A stretch of DNA of 40,629 nucleotides from NCBI GenBank assembly GCA_030156255.1, contig JASGMV010000036.1, forward strand, positions 1-40,629, in the 5' to 3' direction. Shown here piece after piece: positions 5,805 to 32,854 of the stretch. The number at the start of each line of letters is the position of its first letter. Position 1 is the first letter of the stretch. The notes beneath the pieces are model-generated. The model saw nothing but the letters and a program-made list of their open reading frames with translations, was not told the DNA's origin and ran no database searches. Source of the stretch: Desulfovibrionales bacterium (lineage in GTDB: Bacteria; Desulfobacterota; Desulfovibrionia; Desulfovibrionales; Desulfovibrionaceae). The position numbers were made by a program, and so were the translations under genes.

Positions 5805-6473
5805 TCAACCCACGAATTTCAGCTCGGCTCTGGCCTTGCCGTCTTCGATGTGCAGCAGCACGTAGCCGCCGGCGGCCATGGCGCCGGGGTTGACCACCTG
5901 CGTGGCGCCCAGGCTTTCGGAGCAGACCGATTCGTGGATGTGGCCGGTCAGGCAAACGGCGGGCTGGACACGCTCGATGAACGCCCGTACGGCCGGGCTG
6001 CCCACATGGGCGCCGGAGTCGATCCGATCGGCGCAGGTGTTCACCGGGGGCGTATGCACGCACAGGACCAATTCTTTGAAGTTTTTCGCTTTTTCGTACG
6101 TCTGGTCCAGCCATTGGCCCATGGTCGCATCCGGGACTTCGCTGGGTGTGGAAAAGGGAGTCGGCGTGGAGTAGCCCACGCCCATGAGCCCGACGCCGGG
6201 GGCCAGCTCCACGGCCTGGAGATGGATGTTCGTTCCCATCTCCTCCAGGACGGACTCCACGGAGATCGTGTCCATGTTGCCGATCTGCCCCATGATCCGG
6301 GGGTTGATTTCGGCGATTTCACGCATGATTTTCTTGGCCGGCTCGGTGCAGCCGCAATTGGTCAGATCGCCGGTGATGATGACGCCGGCGGCGCCGGGCA
6401 GTTCGGCGATGCGAGGCAAATTGGCGGTGCTTTCATGCACGTCGCCGAAGGCGACATAATACGTCGAGGCCAT
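5805..6473 (-). CDS. Calcineurin-like metallophosphoesterase
   Basis: The 222-aa protein has the metal-ligand motifs of the calcineurin-like phosphoesterase fold in order: GDVHES near residue 10, GDLTN near 35, GQIGNMD near 67 (where GNHD is usual), a CVHTPP segment near 138 and TGHIHES near 175. The His of GNHD is replaced by Met, a substitution seen in some YfcE-like and class III members, which may alter catalysis. Substrate is unknown; small phosphodiesters are typical. A strong AGGAGGA site precedes the ATG. It is first in an operon with rlmH. Confidence 0.85.
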   Translation of the reverse strand: MASTYYVAFGDVHESTANLPRIAELPGAAGVIITGDLTNCGCTEPAKKIMREIAEINPRIMGQIGNMDTISVESVLEEMGTNIHLQAVELAPGVGLMGVGYSTPTPFSTPSEVPDATMGQWLDQTYEKAKNFKELVLCVHTPPVNTCADRIDSGAHVGSPAVRAFIERVQPAVCLTGHIHESVCSESLGATQVVNPGAMAAGGYVLLHIEDGKARAELKFVG

Positions 6474-6592
6474 GGAGTGTTCCTCCTGCTTTGCTTTCCG
6501 GTCAGACGGCTGTTATTGACGGCGTTGGAAACGGGAGTCGCCTCTCGACGGCGTACTTCCTTTTCGTGAGACATAGCAACGACCGGCCCGGG

Positions 6593-7204
6593 ATGCAAAA
6601 GCGAAAAATGACGTTTTGCAAAAAAGAGCTTCGCCGCAGGCTGCTCGGATTGCGCGACGGGTTGTCCTCCGGCCAGCGCCAGGAGCTTTCCGCCAAGGCC
6701 GCGGCCTTGATTCGGAGTCTGGACGTTTGGCGGCGGGCCCAGACTGTTTTGCTCTACGCGCCCTTTCGCAATGAGCTGGACGTTTCGTCTTTGCTGGAGG
6801 AGCTTTTCGGGAGGGGGGCCACAGTGCTGCTGCCCCGTTGCCGTCCGGGCCGCAATGGGGAAATGGACCTGGCCCGCTCGACCTGCGCCGCCGACCTCGT
6901 TCCGGGCGCTTACGGCATTCTGGAGCCGAACCCCGAAACCTGCCCCGCCTTGCCGGAGCCGGGCCGAAACCCGGCCGTGGATCTGGCGGTGGTCCCCGGC
7001 GTGGGATTCGACCGCCGGGGCTACCGCATCGGCTTCGGCCAGGGATATTACGATCGGCTGCTTGGCTCGGAGGCCATGGCCGGTTGCCTGAGCGTCGGCG
7101 TGGGCTACCATTTCCAACTTGTGGACAACATTCCCTGCGACCCCTGGGACGTCCCCCTGCGGGCCGTGGTTACGGACAAGGAGGTTGCATGGACCGCATC
7201 GTAA
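6593..7204 (+). CDS. 5-formyltetrahydrofolate cyclo-ligase
   Basis: This enzyme uses ATP to turn 5-formyl-THF into 5,10-methenyl-THF, returning the folate to one-carbon metabolism. The N-terminal CKKELRRRLLGLRDGLS region, the LLYAPFRNELDV strand and the signature GVGFDRRGYRIGFGQGYYDR (about residues 136-155) identify it. I chose the ATG at 6593 (203 aa); a second at 6608 is also plausible, and the in-frame extension to 6491 is not family-like. The last 16 bases overlap pgeF, so the two are probably coupled. Confidence 0.9.
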   Translation: MQKRKMTFCKKELRRRLLGLRDGLSSGQRQELSAKAAALIRSLDVWRRAQTVLLYAPFRNELDVSSLLEELFGRGATVLLPRCRPGRNGEMDLARSTCAADLVPGAYGILEPNPETCPALPEPGRNPAVDLAVVPGVGFDRRGYRIGFGQGYYDRLLGSEAMAGCLSVGVGYHFQLVDNIPCDPWDVPLRAVVTDKEVAWTAS

Positions 7205-7941
7205 CCATCCCCTTCGCCTTTCCGGGCGCGCCGGGCGTGCGCTGCGTCTTCACCACCTGCATGGGCGGCGCGAGCCGCGCGCCCTACGCCGCCGGCAACT
7301 TGTCTTTCGACGTGGGAGACGAACAAACGGCCGTGGTAGCCAACAGGCAAGCGCTGCAAGCCCAAGAAGGTTTTGCGGGGTGGGCCGAAAACCGGCAGGT
7401 GCATGGGGACGTGATCCGGTTCGATCCGCCGTCCGAGGCCATGCTGGCGCCGGCGACGCACGAGGCCGACGGGTTGGCTTCCTCCCGGCCCGGCTTGGCC
7501 CTGGCCGCCAAGACCGCGGACTGCCAACCCGTGCTGCTGGCCCACGCCTCGGGCCGCGCCGTGGCCGCCTTGCACGTGGGCTGGCGCGGCAACCGCATCG
7601 GGTTTCCCGTGACGGGCGTCCGGGCGTTCTGCTCGCATTACGGCTTCGACCCCGCAAGCGTCCTGGCCGTGCGCGGTCCGAGCCTGGGACCAGCAGCCTC
7701 CGAGTTCGTGAATTTCGAAAAGGAGTTCGGACCGGAGTTCTCCTCCTATTTCGATTCGGCGAACCGAACCGTGGACCTATGGCGGCTGACACGGGACCAG
7801 TTGCAGGCCGCGGGATTGCAGGAGAAAAATATTTTCAGTCTGGACCTGTGCACCTTTTCCCTGCCCGGAGCTTTTTACTCCTACCGGCGAGAGCGGACGA
7901 CGGGCCGGCAGGCGGGCGTCATCTGGATCGAGGCGAAGTAG
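7189..7941 (+). CDS. pgeF: Laccase-domain (YfiH/PgeF) family protein
   Basis: The 250-aa protein belongs to the YfiH/DUF152 family, whose E. coli member PgeF corrects wrongly incorporated L-Ser in peptidoglycan; other members act on purine nucleosides. The metal ligands are visible: His in NRQVHGD near residue 67, Cys in KTADCQPVL near 109, and His in ALHVGWRGN near 128. The C-terminal SLDLCTFSL...FYSYRRE is typical. The start is fixed by a strong AAGGAGG seven bases upstream. It lies inside the end of the folate ligase gene, suggesting co-translation. Confidence 0.87.
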   Translation: MDRIVTIPFAFPGAPGVRCVFTTCMGGASRAPYAAGNLSFDVGDEQTAVVANRQALQAQEGFAGWAENRQVHGDVIRFDPPSEAMLAPATHEADGLASSRPGLALAAKTADCQPVLLAHASGRAVAALHVGWRGNRIGFPVTGVRAFCSHYGFDPASVLAVRGPSLGPAASEFVNFEKEFGPEFSSYFDSANRTVDLWRLTRDQLQAAGLQEKNIFSLDLCTFSLPGAFYSYRRERTTGRQAGVIWIEAK

Positions 7942-8172
7942 CGTTATTACAGGCGACGAATTTGAACATTCAACGTTATTGCGCGTAGGGTTTCGCCTCA
8001 AATCCATCCCACCGTTTTTATTTCTTCGGCTTTCACATCTTGTCCGATACGAAAAAAAATATGCAACGAATGGACTTAATTCTTCCAACATTTTTTCATT
8101 CGGGCCTTCCCATTTTTGCCTTTTAGTACTACCCCTCATGTAAACAACACCATTTTGCCGGAGGTTCTCGTT

Positions 8173-27172: not shown

Positions 27173-28126
27173 ATGAAAATCGGTCTACCGCCCGCAGCGC
27201 ATCTGGCCCTGGCCATGGCGATCGTGGGCAGCTCCGTCGTTGTCGGCAAGGTCATGGTTCGGGAAGCTCCCGTCTTTCTGGCTTCGACCGTGCGATTCGC
27301 TCTGGCCTGCGCCGTGTTGGTCCCGCTGGTTCGAATCAAGGAAGGGCGGTTGCCCCGATTGGGGCGCAAAGGATTGGCCGCAGCCGGCGCCATGGCCCTG
27401 TGCGGTTCGTTTTTGTTTACGATCTGCCTGCTGTACGGGCTGCAATGGACGACGCCGGGCGCGGCAGGCATCATCACCAGCACCACGCCGGCCTGCATGG
27501 GGCTGACGGCCTGGCTGTTTTTGGGGGAACGAATGTCCGTCCGATCCGCAGCAGCCCTGGCCTTGGCCACGATAGGCGTCGGGGCGCTCAACCTGCTGGC
27601 CTCTTCCGGCCCTTCGGCTCTGGGGAAAAACCCCGCCGCCGGAAACATGCTTGTCCTGGCCGCCGTGGTTTGCGAGTCGATTTTCCTGCTTTTGCGCAAA
27701 ACCATCAAGGAGCCGCTGTCCGCGCTGGGTCTGTCCACGCTGGTTTCGTTGTTCGGCCTGGCGCTCTTTGCGCCGGTCGGAATATTCGAGGCGCTCCGCG
27801 GTGGTTTAGGGTCCGTAAGCCCCCTGGGCTGGTTCGCGATGGTTTATTACGGGCTGGTCGTCACCGTGCTCGCCTATTTGTTTTGGTTCGCCGGGGTCGC
27901 GCGGGCCAGCGCCGCCCTGGCCGGGGTCATGACCGGCGTCATGCCGGTCAGCGCCCTGCTGCTCTCCGCCCTGTTTCTGAATGAGCGCATCCAGGCGGCG
28001 CATGTTTTGGGATGCGCCGCCGTGCTGGCGAGCATCGGACTCTTGTCCGGCGTTCGCTGGCGAGCCCTGAAGCCTTCAAGGGTATTGAGCCGTCTGCGCG
28101 GGAAGTTGGAGTTGCTTTTTAGATGA
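27173..28126 (+). CDS. EamA-family (DMT) transporter
   Basis: The 317-aa inner-membrane protein has about ten hydrophobic helices in two EamA repeats, starting LPPAAHLALAMAIVGSSVV. A conserved PGAAGIITSTTPACMGLTAW segment ends the first repeat and ASAALAGVMTGVMPVSALLL the second. Such proteins usually export amino acids or other metabolites. AAGGAGG precedes the ATG and the gene follows the AraC regulator by 39 bases, so the pair is likely one unit. Its stop codon lies inside the Fur box that serves the next gene. Confidence 0.9.
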   Translation: MKIGLPPAAHLALAMAIVGSSVVVGKVMVREAPVFLASTVRFALACAVLVPLVRIKEGRLPRLGRKGLAAAGAMALCGSFLFTICLLYGLQWTTPGAAGIITSTTPACMGLTAWLFLGERMSVRSAAALALATIGVGALNLLASSGPSALGKNPAAGNMLVLAAVVCESIFLLLRKTIKEPLSALGLSTLVSLFGLALFAPVGIFEALRGGLGSVSPLGWFAMVYYGLVVTVLAYLFWFAGVARASAALAGVMTGVMPVSALLLSALFLNERIQAAHVLGCAAVLASIGLLSGVRWRALKPSRVLSRLRGKLELLFR

Positions 28127-28143
28127 TAATGGTTATCATTTTA
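28123..28143 (+). promoter_or_regulatory. Fur box
   Basis: GATAATGGTTATCATTTTA (28125-28143) matches about 15 of 19 positions of the classic Fur site. The core ATGATAA/TTATCAT (28123-28139) is a perfect 7-bp inverted repeat around three bases. It overlaps the EamA stop and lies 35 bases before the 88-aa gene, suggesting iron-dependent control of that gene. Confidence 0.8.
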
Positions 28144-28177
28144 TTGTTGGCGAGAACGACAAACAAAGGAGGGCGCC

Positions 28178-28444
28178 ATGACCAGCCCGAGAGAGAGTCG
28201 TTATGAGAAGGCGTTGGCCTGGGCTCGGGGTCTGCGCGACCCTGAAAGCCCATCAAAATTCCCTGACCATGAAACCTACTTGAAGCTCGCCGCCCAAAAC
28301 GCGGACATCGACGTTGCGCAGTACAGCCCGGAGGAAAATCAATTTCACGAACTGCCGGAAGAATACGAGCTGGCGTACTTGACGGTGAAGCTGGAGCGCC
28401 AGAAAGAGCGCGCCGGGGCGGGATCCAAGGATGTAGACGTATGA
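28178..28444 (+). CDS. Small acidic protein under Fur control, unknown function
   Basis: The 88-aa protein has no Cys, signal peptide or membrane segment. It is charged and largely helical (EKALAWARGLRD, EYELAYLTVKLERQKE) with a central KLAAQNADIDVAQYSPEEN. AAAGGAGG precedes the ATG, and a Fur box and a strong terminator frame it, so it is a stand-alone iron-responsive unit. I do not recognise the family; a small regulator or iron-limitation response protein is inference. Confidence 0.75.
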   Translation: MTSPRESRYEKALAWARGLRDPESPSKFPDHETYLKLAAQNADIDVAQYSPEENQFHELPEEYELAYLTVKLERQKERAGAGSKDVDV

Positions 28445-28449
28445 CCAAG

Positions 28450-28475
28450 GGCCGGGTTTGAAGACCCGGCCTTTT
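28450..28475 (+). terminator. Rho-independent terminator
   Basis: GGCCGGGT (28450-28457) pairs perfectly with ACCCGGCC (28464-28471) around a 6-base loop, followed by TTTT. It ends the 88-aa gene and may also stop the convergent rhodanese-ferritin transcript. Confidence 0.88.
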
Positions 28476-28494
28476 CGTGTGATGCGCGATGGAG

Positions 28495-29328
28495 TCAGCC
28501 TTCCTGGTCCAACAATTCGCCGAGTCGGCGCAAGTGCTCCTTTTCCTCTTTTCCGAGATGCTGCAGGGCTTGCCGGGAATCGTCGTTTTTTGCGTTTCGC
28601 GCCGCCCGTTCATATAGGTCCATGGCCTGGGCCTCGATGGACATGGCCAGGAAAATGATGTCGGCCTTGTCTTCCCTGTTGGGTTGCAGCATATCCAAAT
28701 ATTGTTCTGTGGTCATGCCGCCTTCCAGAGCGTCGTTTTGCGAACGCTTTTCCAGGCCGGCCATGTCCATGTCCGGAGACACGCTGCGCCGATATTCCTC
28801 CAGAAGCCGGCTTTTGTGCTTTTCTTCGATCTCGGCGAGCAGTTCGAAGAGCTTGCGGGGCGGTTCGCTGATCGCCTCGTCGGCGAAGACGCGGTACATT
28901 TCCTGAAGGCCGAGCTCCAGGCCGAAGGCGGTGACGAGGCACTGCTCAAGGGTCAGGTCCTCGGGGAAAATGTGCATGCCCTGGTCCACGGGCCCGAAAG
29001 CCGCTTCGCCGCTCCAGGCTTTGAACCCTCCGCCCATGTTGTAGATATGCTTGAACCCTTTGCCCGCCAGAATCTGGGAGGCGGCCCGGCTTCTGCCTCC
29101 GATGGCGCAGTAGACCAGCGTGGGCTTGTCCTTGTCCAACTCCTGGATGTGGGTCTCCAGCTCGGTGATGGGCGCAAGCGTGGCTCCGGGGATGTGTCCG
29201 ACCTGGTATTCCTTGGGCTGGCGGACGTCCAGCAGCTCGTAGGAGTCGGGATCGTGTTCGGTGATGTAGGCGCGGGCTTGGTCCGGGTCCAGGGACGCGA
29301 CGGGAGTGAGGAACTGTTTCCAAAGCAT
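28495..29328 (-). CDS. Rhodanese-ferritin-like (rubrerythrin-type) fusion protein
   Basis: The 277-aa protein joins a rhodanese domain (about residues 10-110) to a ferritin-like di-iron domain (about 130-277). The rhodanese has YELLDVRQPKEYQVGHIPGA and an active Cys in LVYCAIGGRSRAAS. The C-terminal part has ExxH-type ligands (EIEEKHKSRL, EAQAMDLYERAA, GKEEKEHLRRL). The rubredoxin domain of true rubrerythrins is absent. This suggests sulfane-sulfur transfer or peroxide handling in an anaerobe. A strong AAGGAGG lies before the ATG at 29328. It is preceded by what looks like an oxidoreductase remnant. Confidence 0.88.
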   Translation of the reverse strand: MLWKQFLTPVASLDPDQARAYITEHDPDSYELLDVRQPKEYQVGHIPGATLAPITELETHIQELDKDKPTLVYCAIGGRSRAASQILAGKGFKHIYNMGGGFKAWSGEAAFGPVDQGMHIFPEDLTLEQCLVTAFGLELGLQEMYRVFADEAISEPPRKLFELLAEIEEKHKSRLLEEYRRSVSPDMDMAGLEKRSQNDALEGGMTTEQYLDMLQPNREDKADIIFLAMSIEAQAMDLYERAARNAKNDDSRQALQHLGKEEKEHLRRLGELLDQEG

Positions 29329-29348
29329 GTTTTCCTCCTTGGCGTTGT

Positions 29349-29591
29349 TCATATGGCTGGCGTTCCGCAGATTTTTTGGAAGCGTCGCATGAAGGACGCT
29401 TCGATGTAATTTTTGATTTTGAAGGCCAGGTTGCCGCCGAACACCAGCCTCTTGCGCGCAAAGACGCCGGAGCCGTCTCCCAGGTTGAAGATCAGCAGGT
29501 AAATTTTTTGGGGCGTAACGGGCTGGATTTCCTCCGGTAAGAACCGCCACGCCACCGCCGGCCGCCGTACGAAAATATGATTTTCAGTAAG
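29349..29591 (-). pseudogene. C-terminal remnant of a probable FAD-dependent oxidoreductase
   Basis: The minus-strand frame reads about LPEEIQPVTPQKIYLLIFNL, then GDGSGVFARKRLVFGGNLAF and KIKNYIEASFMRRFQKICG. This resembles the tail of type II NADH dehydrogenase-like flavoproteins, including the C-terminal segment that contacts the membrane. No FAD- or NAD-binding motif precedes it: the neighbouring DNA is plus-strand material of an ABC transporter remnant. The open frame extends to 29636, but its first part is not family-like. It sits 20 bases before the rhodanese-ferritin gene, so it may once have been its operon partner. The assignment is by motif memory only. Confidence 0.4.
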
Positions 29592-29661
29592 TCTCGCGAG
29601 GAGCAGGGGCAAGACCCGGGGCGTGGACCAGGGCATGCCTTTGAATACGTTCGGGGTGTAG

Positions 29662-29892
29662 CCCCTGCGTCATGACGAGAGCGCCCCGCGCGTCCGCGAC
29701 ACCCGTCCTGAAGGCCTGAAGTTTTCGCCGGACCCGGACCCCGGCGTGGTGGAGCGTATGGCCTTCGCTGGCAGGTGCGTTGTCTACGCCGCCGGCCTTG
29801 CCGGCGCGTCGCTGACGATCTACCGTCTGGGCGGGGAGGTCCCGGCCGGGAGCCGGGTACGGGTGCGTCTGGTTCAGGATATCGAAACTTGA
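29662..29892 (+). pseudogene. Remnant of an ABC transporter ATPase (TOBE-like tail)
   Basis: After a stop codon at 29659 the frame reads DTRPEGLKFSPDPDPGVV, then MAFAGRCVVYAAGLAGASLT and a short IYRLGGEVPAGSRVRVRLV before TGA. This is the style of the C-terminal TOBE domain of importer ATPases (RPE...V..VVY.AGL...L.I...). No Walker A, signature or Walker B motif is found before it. Its stop lies directly at the ribosome site of the binding-protein gene, the usual ATPase-binding protein order of this family. A deletion removed the rest of the gene. Confidence 0.5.
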
Positions 29893-29901
29893 GGAGGGAG
29901 C

Positions 29902-31131
29902 ATGCGTCGTTGGTTTGCGGCCGTCTGCGCGTTGGCGTTCGTCGCCGCTTTTTCCGCCAACGCTCGGGCGGGGGGGGACGAGGCGCTTCGGGCGGCCCTG
30001 GACAGCGGCAATTTCAGCGCCGTGGAGCAAATGGCCAGGGGCGGGGTGGTTCGGTTCTACATGTACAGCGGTTTCGCCCACGAGAACGGTTGGGTGGACG
30101 GCTTTGCGGCGCAGCATCTCAAACGCCGCTACGCAGTCAGCTTGCGGCGCGTTCCCATGAACGTTTCGGTGTTCATGAACAAACTGCTTGCGGAAAAGGC
30201 CGCTGGCGTCAAAGAGGGCTCCATCGACCTGCTGTGGATCAACGGCGAGAATTTCAAAAACGCCATGAAGGCGGGGTTGCTGTTCGGGCCGTTTGCAAAT
30301 CGGCTGCCGAACTTCGCCCTGGCGGACCCGCAACTCGCCGCGTATGATTTCGGTTATCCCGTAAACGGCTATGAGGCGCCTTACGGCAAAGCCCAGTTCG
30401 TTTTCGAATACGATCAGGCGAGGACCCCGTCTCCTCCCAAGAATCTGCAGGAGCTTACGGAGTGGATCAAGGCCAATCCCGGCCAATTCACCTATCCCCA
30501 GCCTCCGGACTCTACGGGATCGGCTTTTGTTCGCCAGGCGTTTTACGCTCTTACCGGGGGCTATCGGCAGTACATGGCCGGGTTCGACCGGAAGCTTTTC
30601 GACCGCAACGCGCCCAAACTGTGGGCGTGGCTGAATGGAATAAAACCCTATCTGTGGCGGGCCGGCGGCGCCTATCCCCGGGATGCGGCCAGGCTGGACG
30701 CCATGTTCTCCCGCGGCGAGGTGGGTATGTCCATGAGCCGCCACCCCCTCCACGCGCAAATGAAGATTCTGGAAGGCGTGTACCCCAAGAGCGTAAGGAC
30801 CTTCGCGCTGCAGGACGGATCCATTTTCAATACGCATTTTACGGCCATTCCGGCCAACTCGCCCAACAAGGCCGCGGCCCTGGTCGTTGCGAATTTTTTG
30901 ATGTCTCTTGATGCGCAACTCTCCAAGTACGATCCGGACAATTGGGGCGATTTCCCGGTGTTGGATTTGTCGAAGCTGTCTGAAGACTGGCGGGAGAAGT
31001 TCGGGGCCGTGGACTTGGGCGCCGCGACCTTGCCGGCCGGCGCCTTGCAGCAGGCCGCGGTTCCGGAGATTCCTTCCGCTTGGTTGGAGGCGTTGGAGGG
31101 GGGATGGGAGCGCAACGTGCTCAATCGGTGA
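29902..31131 (+). CDS. ABC transporter periplasmic binding protein, YnjB-like
   Basis: The 409-aa protein has a signal peptide (MRRWFAAVCALAFVAAFSANARA) in its first 23 residues (position 23 ends the cleavage region). The mature part is a type 2 periplasmic binding fold, with IDLLWINGENFKNAM, PYGKAQFVFEYDQA, LTEWIKANPGQFTYPQPP and TGSAFVRQAFYALTGG, as in the YnjB family. Its ligand is unknown. GAGGAGGG precedes the ATG. It is complete, but both the upstream ATPase and the downstream permease look decayed, so the transporter probably cannot import unless another system supplies the missing parts. Confidence 0.85.
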   Translation: MRRWFAAVCALAFVAAFSANARAGGDEALRAALDSGNFSAVEQMARGGVVRFYMYSGFAHENGWVDGFAAQHLKRRYAVSLRRVPMNVSVFMNKLLAEKAAGVKEGSIDLLWINGENFKNAMKAGLLFGPFANRLPNFALADPQLAAYDFGYPVNGYEAPYGKAQFVFEYDQARTPSPPKNLQELTEWIKANPGQFTYPQPPDSTGSAFVRQAFYALTGGYRQYMAGFDRKLFDRNAPKLWAWLNGIKPYLWRAGGAYPRDAARLDAMFSRGEVGMSMSRHPLHAQMKILEGVYPKSVRTFALQDGSIFNTHFTAIPANSPNKAAALVVANFLMSLDAQLSKYDPDNWGDFPVLDLSKLSEDWREKFGAVDLGAATLPAGALQQAAVPEIPSAWLEALEGGWERNVLNR

Positions 31132-31518
31132 AGCTCGGACGCCGATTCCCTTGGCTGGCGCCGGCGCCCGTAGGCTTGCCCTTTCTGCTGCTGTTCCGCG
31201 CGGGCGCGGACTTCACCATCCTGCTGCGCTTGGCCCTGCTGGATCGTCCTGTCCGTAGAGCCGCCGCTTCTGGCGCCGCCCGCTCTTGCGGGGGGAACGG
31301 TGGTTTTTCTCATATCCTTTTCCGAGTATTTTCTTGTATTCTTGGTGGGAGGAGGAGGCGTCCGGTCGTACGCGAGCTATTTGTTTCCGTTTCTGGCGTT
31401 CTCGGACCTTGGCGCGGCTTCGGCCTTGACGTTTGTATTTTGGGCGGCGGCGCTTGGCGCCTTTGTGCTGCTGGAGTTCAGCGTGCGCCGCGCATATCGC
31501 CGAATGGGACTGGGATGA
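31104..31518 (+). pseudogene. Decayed ABC permease, N- and C-terminal remnants
   Basis: An ATG at 31104, inside the end of the binding-protein gene, starts MGAQRAQSVKLGRRFPWLAP and a first hydrophobic helix, then the frame turns to non-protein-like sequence near 31240. In the next frame, from about 31243, permease-like sequence resumes: PPLLAPPALAGGTVVFLISF, SEYFLVFLVGGGGVRSYASY and a final helix pair ending RRAYRRMGLG at 31518. A YnjC-type permease should be about 500 aa; here only about 50 plus 90 residues remain, joined out of frame. A deletion with frame change explains this. Confidence 0.6.
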
Positions 31519-31528
31519 AGGGGGAGTT

Positions 31529-32854
31529 ATGAAGTCCAGGAAAGAATTGCCGCGCGTTCAGTCGAACGCCCAAAAGAGCAAGGAAAGCCAGGAGGCCGTC
31601 GGACAGATGGTCTTTGTAGCCCGCCAGCCGGTGATGACGACGAACCGGGACGTTTGGGGTTACGAATTGCTGTTCCGCGGTTCGGGCGAGGCGAACGTCG
31701 CCGCGGTCAAGGATGCGGACATGGCCACCTCGAGCGTCATTGCGGACGGCTTTGTGATGGCCGCCGAAAGCCTGCCCAAGGACCGCAAGGTGCTCATCAA
31801 CTTTCCGGAGCGGCTTTTGGCGGAGGATGCGGCCTTCGCCCTGCCCGCGGATATTTGCGTCATCGAAATCCTTGAGGACGTGCAGGCCGCGCCGGAGGTG
31901 CTGGCCGGACTGCATCGGCTGAAAAAGGCCGGCTACTCGCTGGCGTTGGACGACTACGTGGGGGAGGCCGCGGCCCAGGCCTTTTTGCCCCTGGTGGACA
32001 TCGTCAAGGTGGACATACTGGGGCTTGGCGCGGATCCGGCGCGGTTGGCCGAGGTTGTGGAGAGGCTTCGGCCCCACGGCGTGGAGCTCTTGGCCGAGAA
32101 AGTGGAGGATCGGCCGACCTTCGAGTTGACGGCGAAAATGGGGTTCAACCTTTTTCAGGGATATTTCTTCAGCCGGCCGGAGGTGATACCCGGCCGCAAG
32201 CTTTCAAGCAGCCAGGTTTCCAAGCTGCACCTGCTCAAGGAGCTCTCCAGCCCCGAGTTCGAGGTCGACAAACTGGCCAAGCTGATCCAGTCGGATTTAT
32301 CGTTGAGCTATCGTTTGTTCCGCTACATCAATTCCGCCGGCTACGGCGTGCGGCACAAGGTGGAGACCGTCAGCCGGGCCATCGCCCTGCTGGGAAGGCT
32401 GCAAATCTCCCAGTGGCTCCGGGCCGTGCTGCTTTCGGATTTGAGTCCTACGAAAGAGGCGACGGAGCTGGCCTTCATGTCCGTGCATCGGGCCAGGTTC
32501 CTGGAGTTCATGGCCAAAGGGCCGTTCAAAGGGCGGTTCGAGTCGGAGCGCATGTTTCTGCTGGGGCTTTTTTCTCTTTTGGACGCCCTGTTGGGACAGC
32601 CCATGGACGAAATTTTGGAGCACGTTCCACTGGACAATGCGGGCAAGGACGCCTTAATGGGCAGAAAAAGCCCCGACTTGGGCTATCTTGAGTTCGTTCG
32701 GGCCTATGAACGGGGCGACTGGGAAGACGCCCAGCATATCGCCAACACGCTGGGTTCTCCATTGCAGGAGTCGGATCGCCTGTACATGGAGGCCATGGTC
32801 TGGGCCCACAACATGTTCCGCCTGAAGTCGTCGGGAGAAGGCGCTGGGGCATAG
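31529..32854 (+). CDS. EAL-HDOD (YuxH-type) signalling protein
   Basis: The 441-aa protein has an N-terminal EAL-type domain (about residues 30-225) and an HDOD domain (about 230-430). The EAL signature reads YELLFRG; later positions keep LINFPERLL, VIEILEDV, LALDDYVGE, DIVKVDIL, LLAEKVE and LFQGYFFSRP. Most metal and catalytic residues are present but the loop-6 DDFG is altered (DDYVGE), so c-di-GMP hydrolysis is doubtful. HDOD proteins act in signalling or stress outputs. A GGGGAG site precedes the ATG at 31529, and a strong terminator follows the gene. Confidence 0.88.
   Translation: MKSRKELPRVQSNAQKSKESQEAVGQMVFVARQPVMTTNRDVWGYELLFRGSGEANVAAVKDADMATSSVIADGFVMAAESLPKDRKVLINFPERLLAEDAAFALPADICVIEILEDVQAAPEVLAGLHRLKKAGYSLALDDYVGEAAAQAFLPLVDIVKVDILGLGADPARLAEVVERLRPHGVELLAEKVEDRPTFELTAKMGFNLFQGYFFSRPEVIPGRKLSSSQVSKLHLLKELSSPEFEVDKLAKLIQSDLSLSYRLFRYINSAGYGVRHKVETVSRAIALLGRLQISQWLRAVLLSDLSPTKEATELAFMSVHRARFLEFMAKGPFKGRFESERMFLLGLFSLLDALLGQPMDEILEHVPLDNAGKDALMGRKSPDLGYLEFVRAYERGDWEDAQHIANTLGSPLQESDRLYMEAMVWAHNMFRLKSSGEGAGA

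Follow-up and report, generated by a model that had tools for sequence, protein, structure and literature searches.

How does a whole gene for a substrate-binding protein (SBP) of the YnjB family come to lie between scraps of the ATPase and permease genes of an ABC importer, and can its product still have a task? The question is raised by the window analysed here, which is a whole contig (C57, 40,629 bases). The draft genome it belongs to comprises 3.84 Mb on 106 contigs and has a completeness of 99.28% (G000; G, L and g stand for genome, locus and genus). The evidence for decay in the window comes from this one assembly of one genome. For comparison, a close set of 59 genomes, made up of 58 relatives plus the genome of the window, and a wider survey of 247 genomes of the order, with a requested completeness of at least 90, were used. 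A YnjB-family SBP was present in 18 of the 59 genomes, the window's own counted, and the operon layout was compared across 16 extended loci of relatives. At the operon level the relatives were Desulfomicrobium and proteobacterial MAGs. In E. coli, the YnjBCD-type importer consists of YnjB, YnjC and YnjD; strictly defined, this type has a short ATPase and a single fused permease of about 500 amino acids.

Lone binding proteins in many genomes carry annotation as transporter parts. Orphan SBPs with new roles are already known: the available text of PMC12802301 describes the mycobacterial LpqZ and FecB as orphan SBPs that were repurposed for other tasks, with new partners shown. Like these, the window encodes an SBP-fold protein without a transporter; LpqZ and FecB belong to other SBP families, and the window has the remnants of the lost transporter still in place. 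The orphan urtA genes of Synechococcus are likewise SBP genes without ABC partners, and the accessible part of PMC8786288 places them near phage genes and considers them possibly mobile, in contrast to the window SBP, which was left behind by decay in place. No report on orphan YnjB-family SBPs was found in the literature searched, which left subscription journals mostly outside. What deserves to be followed is that such one-sided loss recurs within one family. Where the transporter was lost repeatedly with the SBP kept, one case is caught in mid-decay and intact counterparts exist in relatives, one can ask for the solo function of the SBP, since measurements on the intact systems can give the ancestral ligand, whose change can then be traced in the orphans.

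Transporter remnants around an intact binding protein

The SBP gene extends over 29902..31131 on the plus strand and encodes an intact protein of 409 amino acids. It matched the NCBIfam model NF008633 (PRK11622, YnjB family) with 501.7 bits, above the cut-off of 203, over positions 8-395 of 397. A ribosome-binding-site-like GAGGAGGGA is located just upstream of the start, and the predicted signal peptide MRRWFAAVCALAFVAAFSANARA was judged by eye. The complete YnjB-like binding protein of the original prediction is confirmed. The gene is single-copy in the genome and its product is 56-63% identical to the SBPs of complete operons, with a mean identity to the relatives of 0.586 (others 0.585-0.650). 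A sigma-70-like promoter was not found in 29200-31600. The structure model computed from 5 sequences was poor (pLDDT 61.7, pTM 0.56), and the best Foldseek match of this poor model (4r6y, E 3e-11) would indicate an SBP fold and nothing more. A profile search for a close solved relative gave 0 matches at E<=1e-5, and a single-sequence search against solved structures gave weak matches only, the best SBP at E 0.008.

Directly before the SBP gene, in the same arrangement as in the relatives, lies a C-terminal remnant of the operon ATPase (29671..29892, plus strand, about 60 residues), which ends with a TGA. The C-terminal 57-61 residues or so of the relatives' ATPases aligned at 29704-29883 in one open frame with 28-46% identity (best E 3e-10), and Pfam TOBE_2 remained below its cut-off on this tail (E=0.048, 14.2 bits against 21). 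The Walker A, signature and Walker B patterns were absent from all six frames of 28100-29900, and the first ~245 residues of the relatives' ATPases had no tblastn match near the locus. The ATPase-like tail that had been noted without ATP-binding motifs before it is therefore real.

Further upstream, what is left of an FAD-dependent oxidoreductase of a family near TIGR03169, its C-terminus, was detected on the minus strand at 29373..29534 by tblastn with the protein L036:3879-4988, where it matched residues 314-367 of 370 (37% identity, E 5.7e-8). It lies in its own reading frame (29349-29636) and is the sole match of this family in the genome except for one weak distant match. Its downstream neighbour is an intact rhodanese-rubrerythrin fusion gene (28495..29328, minus strand; Pfam Rhodanese 73.6 bits, Rubrerythrin 40.4 bits). 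When 15 loci with relatives of the fusion protein were read, mostly with 1.5-kb flanks, an oxidoreductase gene was beside or near it in two (L060, ~17 nt; L084, 2.4 kb). Just upstream of the operon ATPase, and on the same strand, four operon loci, each of a distinct record (G046, G054, G058, L021), have an FAD-oxidoreductase gene. Because the remnant in the window points away from the ATPase, towards the rhodanese gene, a single deletion between divergent genes is the simplest reading of the upstream break; an inversion could also account for it.

Behind the SBP, about 33 N-terminal residues of permease A remain in frame 3 at 31128..31225 on the plus strand, with an approximate right edge, as judged by eye from a MAFFT alignment and the translation. 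It starts with a GTG that overlaps the SBP stop at 31128 and had no Pfam match. The adjoining permease B remnant in frame 1 consists of about 90 C-terminal residues and covers 31225..31518 on the same strand; its left edge is approximate and the assignment is reliable from 31246. At about 31225-31515 it matched positions 165-260 of 261 of a permease B profile, in which the window fragment itself was 1 of 16 rows, with 136.5 bits (E 2e-39), and was up to 65% identical to the relatives in tblastn (E 7.5e-23). Head and tail are out of frame with a junction at about 31215-31245. The window retains 388 bases against ~1.63 kb for permeases A and B together in L025, a loss of about 1.2-1.3 kb. The next gene, starting ~11 nt past the permease B stop, encodes an EAL-HDOD protein (31529..32854, plus strand; Pfam HDOD 56.2 bits, EAL 49.7 bits), which was not beside the SBP in the extended loci of the relatives. 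This gene may have taken over the operon's transcription.

In the relatives, the genes follow each other in a row on one strand in the order ATPase, SBP, permease A and permease B, and this operon was complete in 13 of the 16 extended loci. The ATPase has about 320 amino acids and the two permeases, encoded by separate genes, about 288 and 263. The single permease of roughly 500 amino acids that had been assumed for the family was consequently rejected. The out-of-frame fusion of permease ends held up, but its head belongs to permease A and its tail to permease B; since these are two genes, the second deletion removed the end of permease A (3' part) and the beginning of permease B (5' part). 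Full operons exist in relatives, and the same short frames, which would have spoken against decay, were not seen in any of the 32 relative loci examined. That two deletions removed transport while the SBP survived is supported by the full operon in relatives, by the mere ends in the window and by the lack of orthologs of the lost parts elsewhere in the genome; two is the simplest count and not a demonstrated one.

Three extended loci were incomplete. G030 has the ATPase and SBP at one place and the two permeases on a different contig, and in G021 the SBP, the ATPase and the permeases were at three separate places; orphaning of the SBP was rejected for both because the genome searches located their permeases elsewhere. 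In L086 (G030:C65:5000-18000), the permease A and B orthologs are about 6 kb apart, away from the ATPase and SBP. The third case, G027, has an SBP that is 42% identical, and the genome search returned no ortholog of the permeases (best matches 52.4 and 45.5 bits) or of the ATPase (262 bits).

The ancestral system shares with the YnjBCD-type importer the SBP family and a gene order in which ATPase and permease flank the SBP, an order also present in the fused-permease loci of the order (L089, L103, L104). It differs from the strict type in its two permease genes and in the C-terminal domain of its longer ATPase, and the window copies of the ATPase and permease genes are wrecked. Among the loci read, a fused YnjC-type permease was present only in G078, G079 and G093, and the SBPs of fused-permease operons form a separate branch (support 98/96).

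Very probably, then, the window contains a wrecked ABC importer operon of the YnjB family with the whole SBP left, and we have high confidence that the decay is real. The remnants retain the order and orientation that the genes have in the relatives. Starting from the ancestral order, one deletion would have joined the minus-strand oxidoreductase tail to the ATPase tail with loss of the fronts of both; beyond what had been proposed, this first deletion also removed most of the FAD-oxidoreductase gene. The other would have left only the permease A head and the permease B tail, fused out of frame. Import by the YnjB-family system would be lost, and the whole SBP gene, with its start, ribosome-binding-site-like sequence and predicted signal peptide, could still yield an exported binding protein without a transporter.

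No orthologous transporter elsewhere and possible constraint on the binding protein

The genome was searched for the missing subunits. The best match of permease A in G000 had 51.3 bits, compared to 379-432 in four equipped genomes in the same search, and the best match of the ATPase had 253 bits, compared to 499-511. For permease B, the fragment in the window was followed by a match of 48.5 bits. No orthologs of the ATPase, permease A or permease B were found elsewhere in the 99.28%-complete assembly of 106 contigs, and the intact SBP of the window is therefore an orphan without a cognate ATPase or permease in its genome. A functional type I ABC importer has the Walker A and signature motifs in its ATPase, as well as two intact permease domains; here, the C-terminal ~60 residues of the ATPase and an out-of-frame permease head and tail are left.

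The window SBP had changes at 6 of 112 strictly invariant positions, the most of 18 rows (others 0-5, the next 5/111; rows L022 and L039 were left out of this count), and three of the six were radical (G56S, F204S, Y280R). This high count could be early decay. The divergence of the SBP relative to rpoB, computed for 15 of 17 genomes (G054 had no match, and G014 was split and left out), was 1.50 for the window, 1.06-1.59 for 13 equipped genomes and 2.83 for the orphan in G027. Changed positions common to the window and G027 SBPs (3/4 or 3/6) were not significant (p=0.07 and 0.25).

The permease B scrap had the lowest mean identity of 16 rows (0.533, compared to 0.61-0.71). At positions with no more than two deviating relatives, the scrap was changed at 14/50 and the SBP at 14/176 (p=0.0005); for the other rows pooled, the same near-invariant positions gave 28/628 and 140/2777. 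With stricter thresholds the contrast was 8/41 against 8/145 (p=0.009) and 5/31 against 6/112 (p=0.06). Rows L023 (permease B), L021 (ATPase, SBP), L022 and L039 (both SBP) were left out. When 15 matched rows were used for both proteins, p was 0.05, 0.03 (8/41 against 11/153) and 0.0003 across the three thresholds, and these values held when the first columns after the junction were removed. The contrast is moderate evidence because it depends on the threshold and because L025, a relative with an intact operon, had a similar or larger ratio at the two stricter thresholds with matched rows. The ATPase tail was not more diverged than its intact relatives (0.342, others 0.325-0.435). As far as these substitutions go, they support, but do not prove, that the window SBP was held under constraint while the permease scrap drifted.

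Lone binding proteins in the order

Across the order, the SBP family was above the cut-off in 52 of the 247 genomes. Permease B was matched at E<=1e-25 in 45, all of them among the 52; one of these matches is the window fragment, that of G209 is split over two frames and those of G078 and G079 are of the fused type. Of the 44 genomes that have permease B, none was without an SBP. The reverse was seen in seven genomes (G027, G081, G222, G227, G230, G084 and G093). G084, assembled in 820 contigs, was not counted as an orphan because permease B occurs in the five other genomes listed for its genus, and G093 was left out because it carries a fused-permease operon. Thus five genomes besides the window's own have the SBP without ortholog permeases. 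Permease A was also absent in these five, with best matches of 52-70 bits, compared, for three of the five, to 428-435 for equipped genomes in the same search; absence of the ATPase was established in G027. A second permease B fragment, in G045:C99, was rejected as a case of decay because it is at the end of a contig (18,526 bases).

In all five orphan genomes the SBP adjoins a gene of the HSDR_N_2 family. The same gene precedes a kinase gene and the operon ATPase in the loci L096, L098 and L100 of genus g5, and this common neighbour suggests that the ATPase and permeases were lost in place. In L039 the lone SBP (6080-7315, minus strand) lies beside the HSDR_N_2 gene (7350-7946, minus strand), and the same pair was observed in L090, L091, L092, L093 and L097. 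Two genera are involved; nuoN-like complex I genes are nearby in five of these six loci, and five of the six genomes lack the transporter. In G225, a lone SBP of this kind coexists with a complete operon elsewhere. Transporter remnants were not detected at the six loci at E<=0.05, beyond chance-level matches in L091 and L092. The window is hence the only case seen in mid-decay.

The SBPs of G027 and G081, which belong to one genus, were compared over 411 codons with our own Nei-Gojobori script. This gave dN 0.078, dS 0.419 and dN/dS 0.186, and four neighbouring genes had dN/dS values of 0.088-0.299. The orphan SBP of this pair is under purifying selection. In the tree the two have a long common stem (1.06), and each was changed at 29 of 102 positions that are invariant in equipped SBPs, a set built without the Clostridial, fused-type and G216-operon rows. 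To judge from these sequences, stem and changes would fit an altered task. The orphan SBPs of the order were changed at 14-31 of the 102 positions and the window SBP at 6. An SBP inside the intact operon of G216, a genome with a second, conventional lone SBP, was changed at 26/102; divergence alone is therefore no marker of transport loss. Resolution of the SBP tree is poor, with 14 of its 32 inner branches open; the window, g28 and g5 suggest at least three independent losses.

Recent loss or retained role

If the system had simply become useless, the ATPase and permeases could have been hit first and the SBP be intact for want of time. The remnants in the window are recognisable and their frames open, the SBP leads in invariant-position changes and no promoter-like site was found near it, all of which agree with a recent loss. 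On the other hand, the permease B scrap seems more drifted than the SBP, five other genomes keep the SBP alone without recognisable remnants, and that of G027 and G081 is under selection; we give recent loss as the whole explanation a little less than an even chance. A collapse of the draft contig at the deletions would be conceivable in an assembly of 106 contigs. It is very improbable, as two junctions occur on one 40.6-kb contig without a junction repeat that explains a collapse, the missing parts are not elsewhere in the assembly and the permease scrap is itself unusually diverged.

Given the same-family orphans in five genomes and the pair under purifying selection, a retained role for the window SBP is plausible. 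There is about an even chance that the protein is still useful, either docked to a different ABC permease or in a role apart from transport, and the remainder goes to recent loss with no present function. A handover of the ligand to another importer, with the dedicated membrane part alone lost, is unlikely. The SBP and permease B are at separate places in 14 genomes (seven of g22, five of g49, G030 and G231), G000 retains importers with distantly similar parts such as C46:40091-42014, and the available text of PMC8786288 suggests the use of other ABC machinery by orphan urtA genes; against this, no orthologous membrane part is left and the closest permease paralogs reach at most 51 bits. The SBP may instead be the ligand-bearing partner of a sensor or an envelope enzyme, which we consider rather doubtful. 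The orphans are open frames despite their changes at invariant positions, dN/dS is 0.19 in G027/G081, and repurposed mycobacterial SBPs set a precedent in the consulted part of PMC12802301. The solitary SBP gene of G021 has a PAS histidine kinase gene as its neighbour, though this genome has the whole transporter. The window itself has no linked partner gene, the next gene being that of the EAL-HDOD protein, absent beside the SBPs of the extended relative loci, and the equally diverged SBP of G216 works against this reading as well. For the order as a whole, we tentatively consider, as possible rather than probable, that YnjB-family importers repeatedly lose the ATPase and both permeases, always in this direction, and that the SBP stays under selection for a transporter-free task; the window would then be half-way and g28 and g5 finished.

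Some further features of the operon loci were recorded. An APH/choline-kinase-like gene is near the operon in L092 (6642-7544) and also in L024, L026-L028, L030, L031, L034, L037, L038, L096, L098, L100 and L103, which may hint that the ligand is phosphorylated once imported. In L098 (6436-7352, G209) permease B is split over two frames in an otherwise complete operon, possibly an early lesion or a sequencing error. G231 has an operon of ATPase, permease A and permease B without the SBP (L100 4737-7497), and its SBP is alone on another contig (L099 4840-6201). There it adjoins genes like those for tryptophan synthase beta and nucleoside hydrolase, as named from their sequence and from Pfam in the paralogous locus L095.
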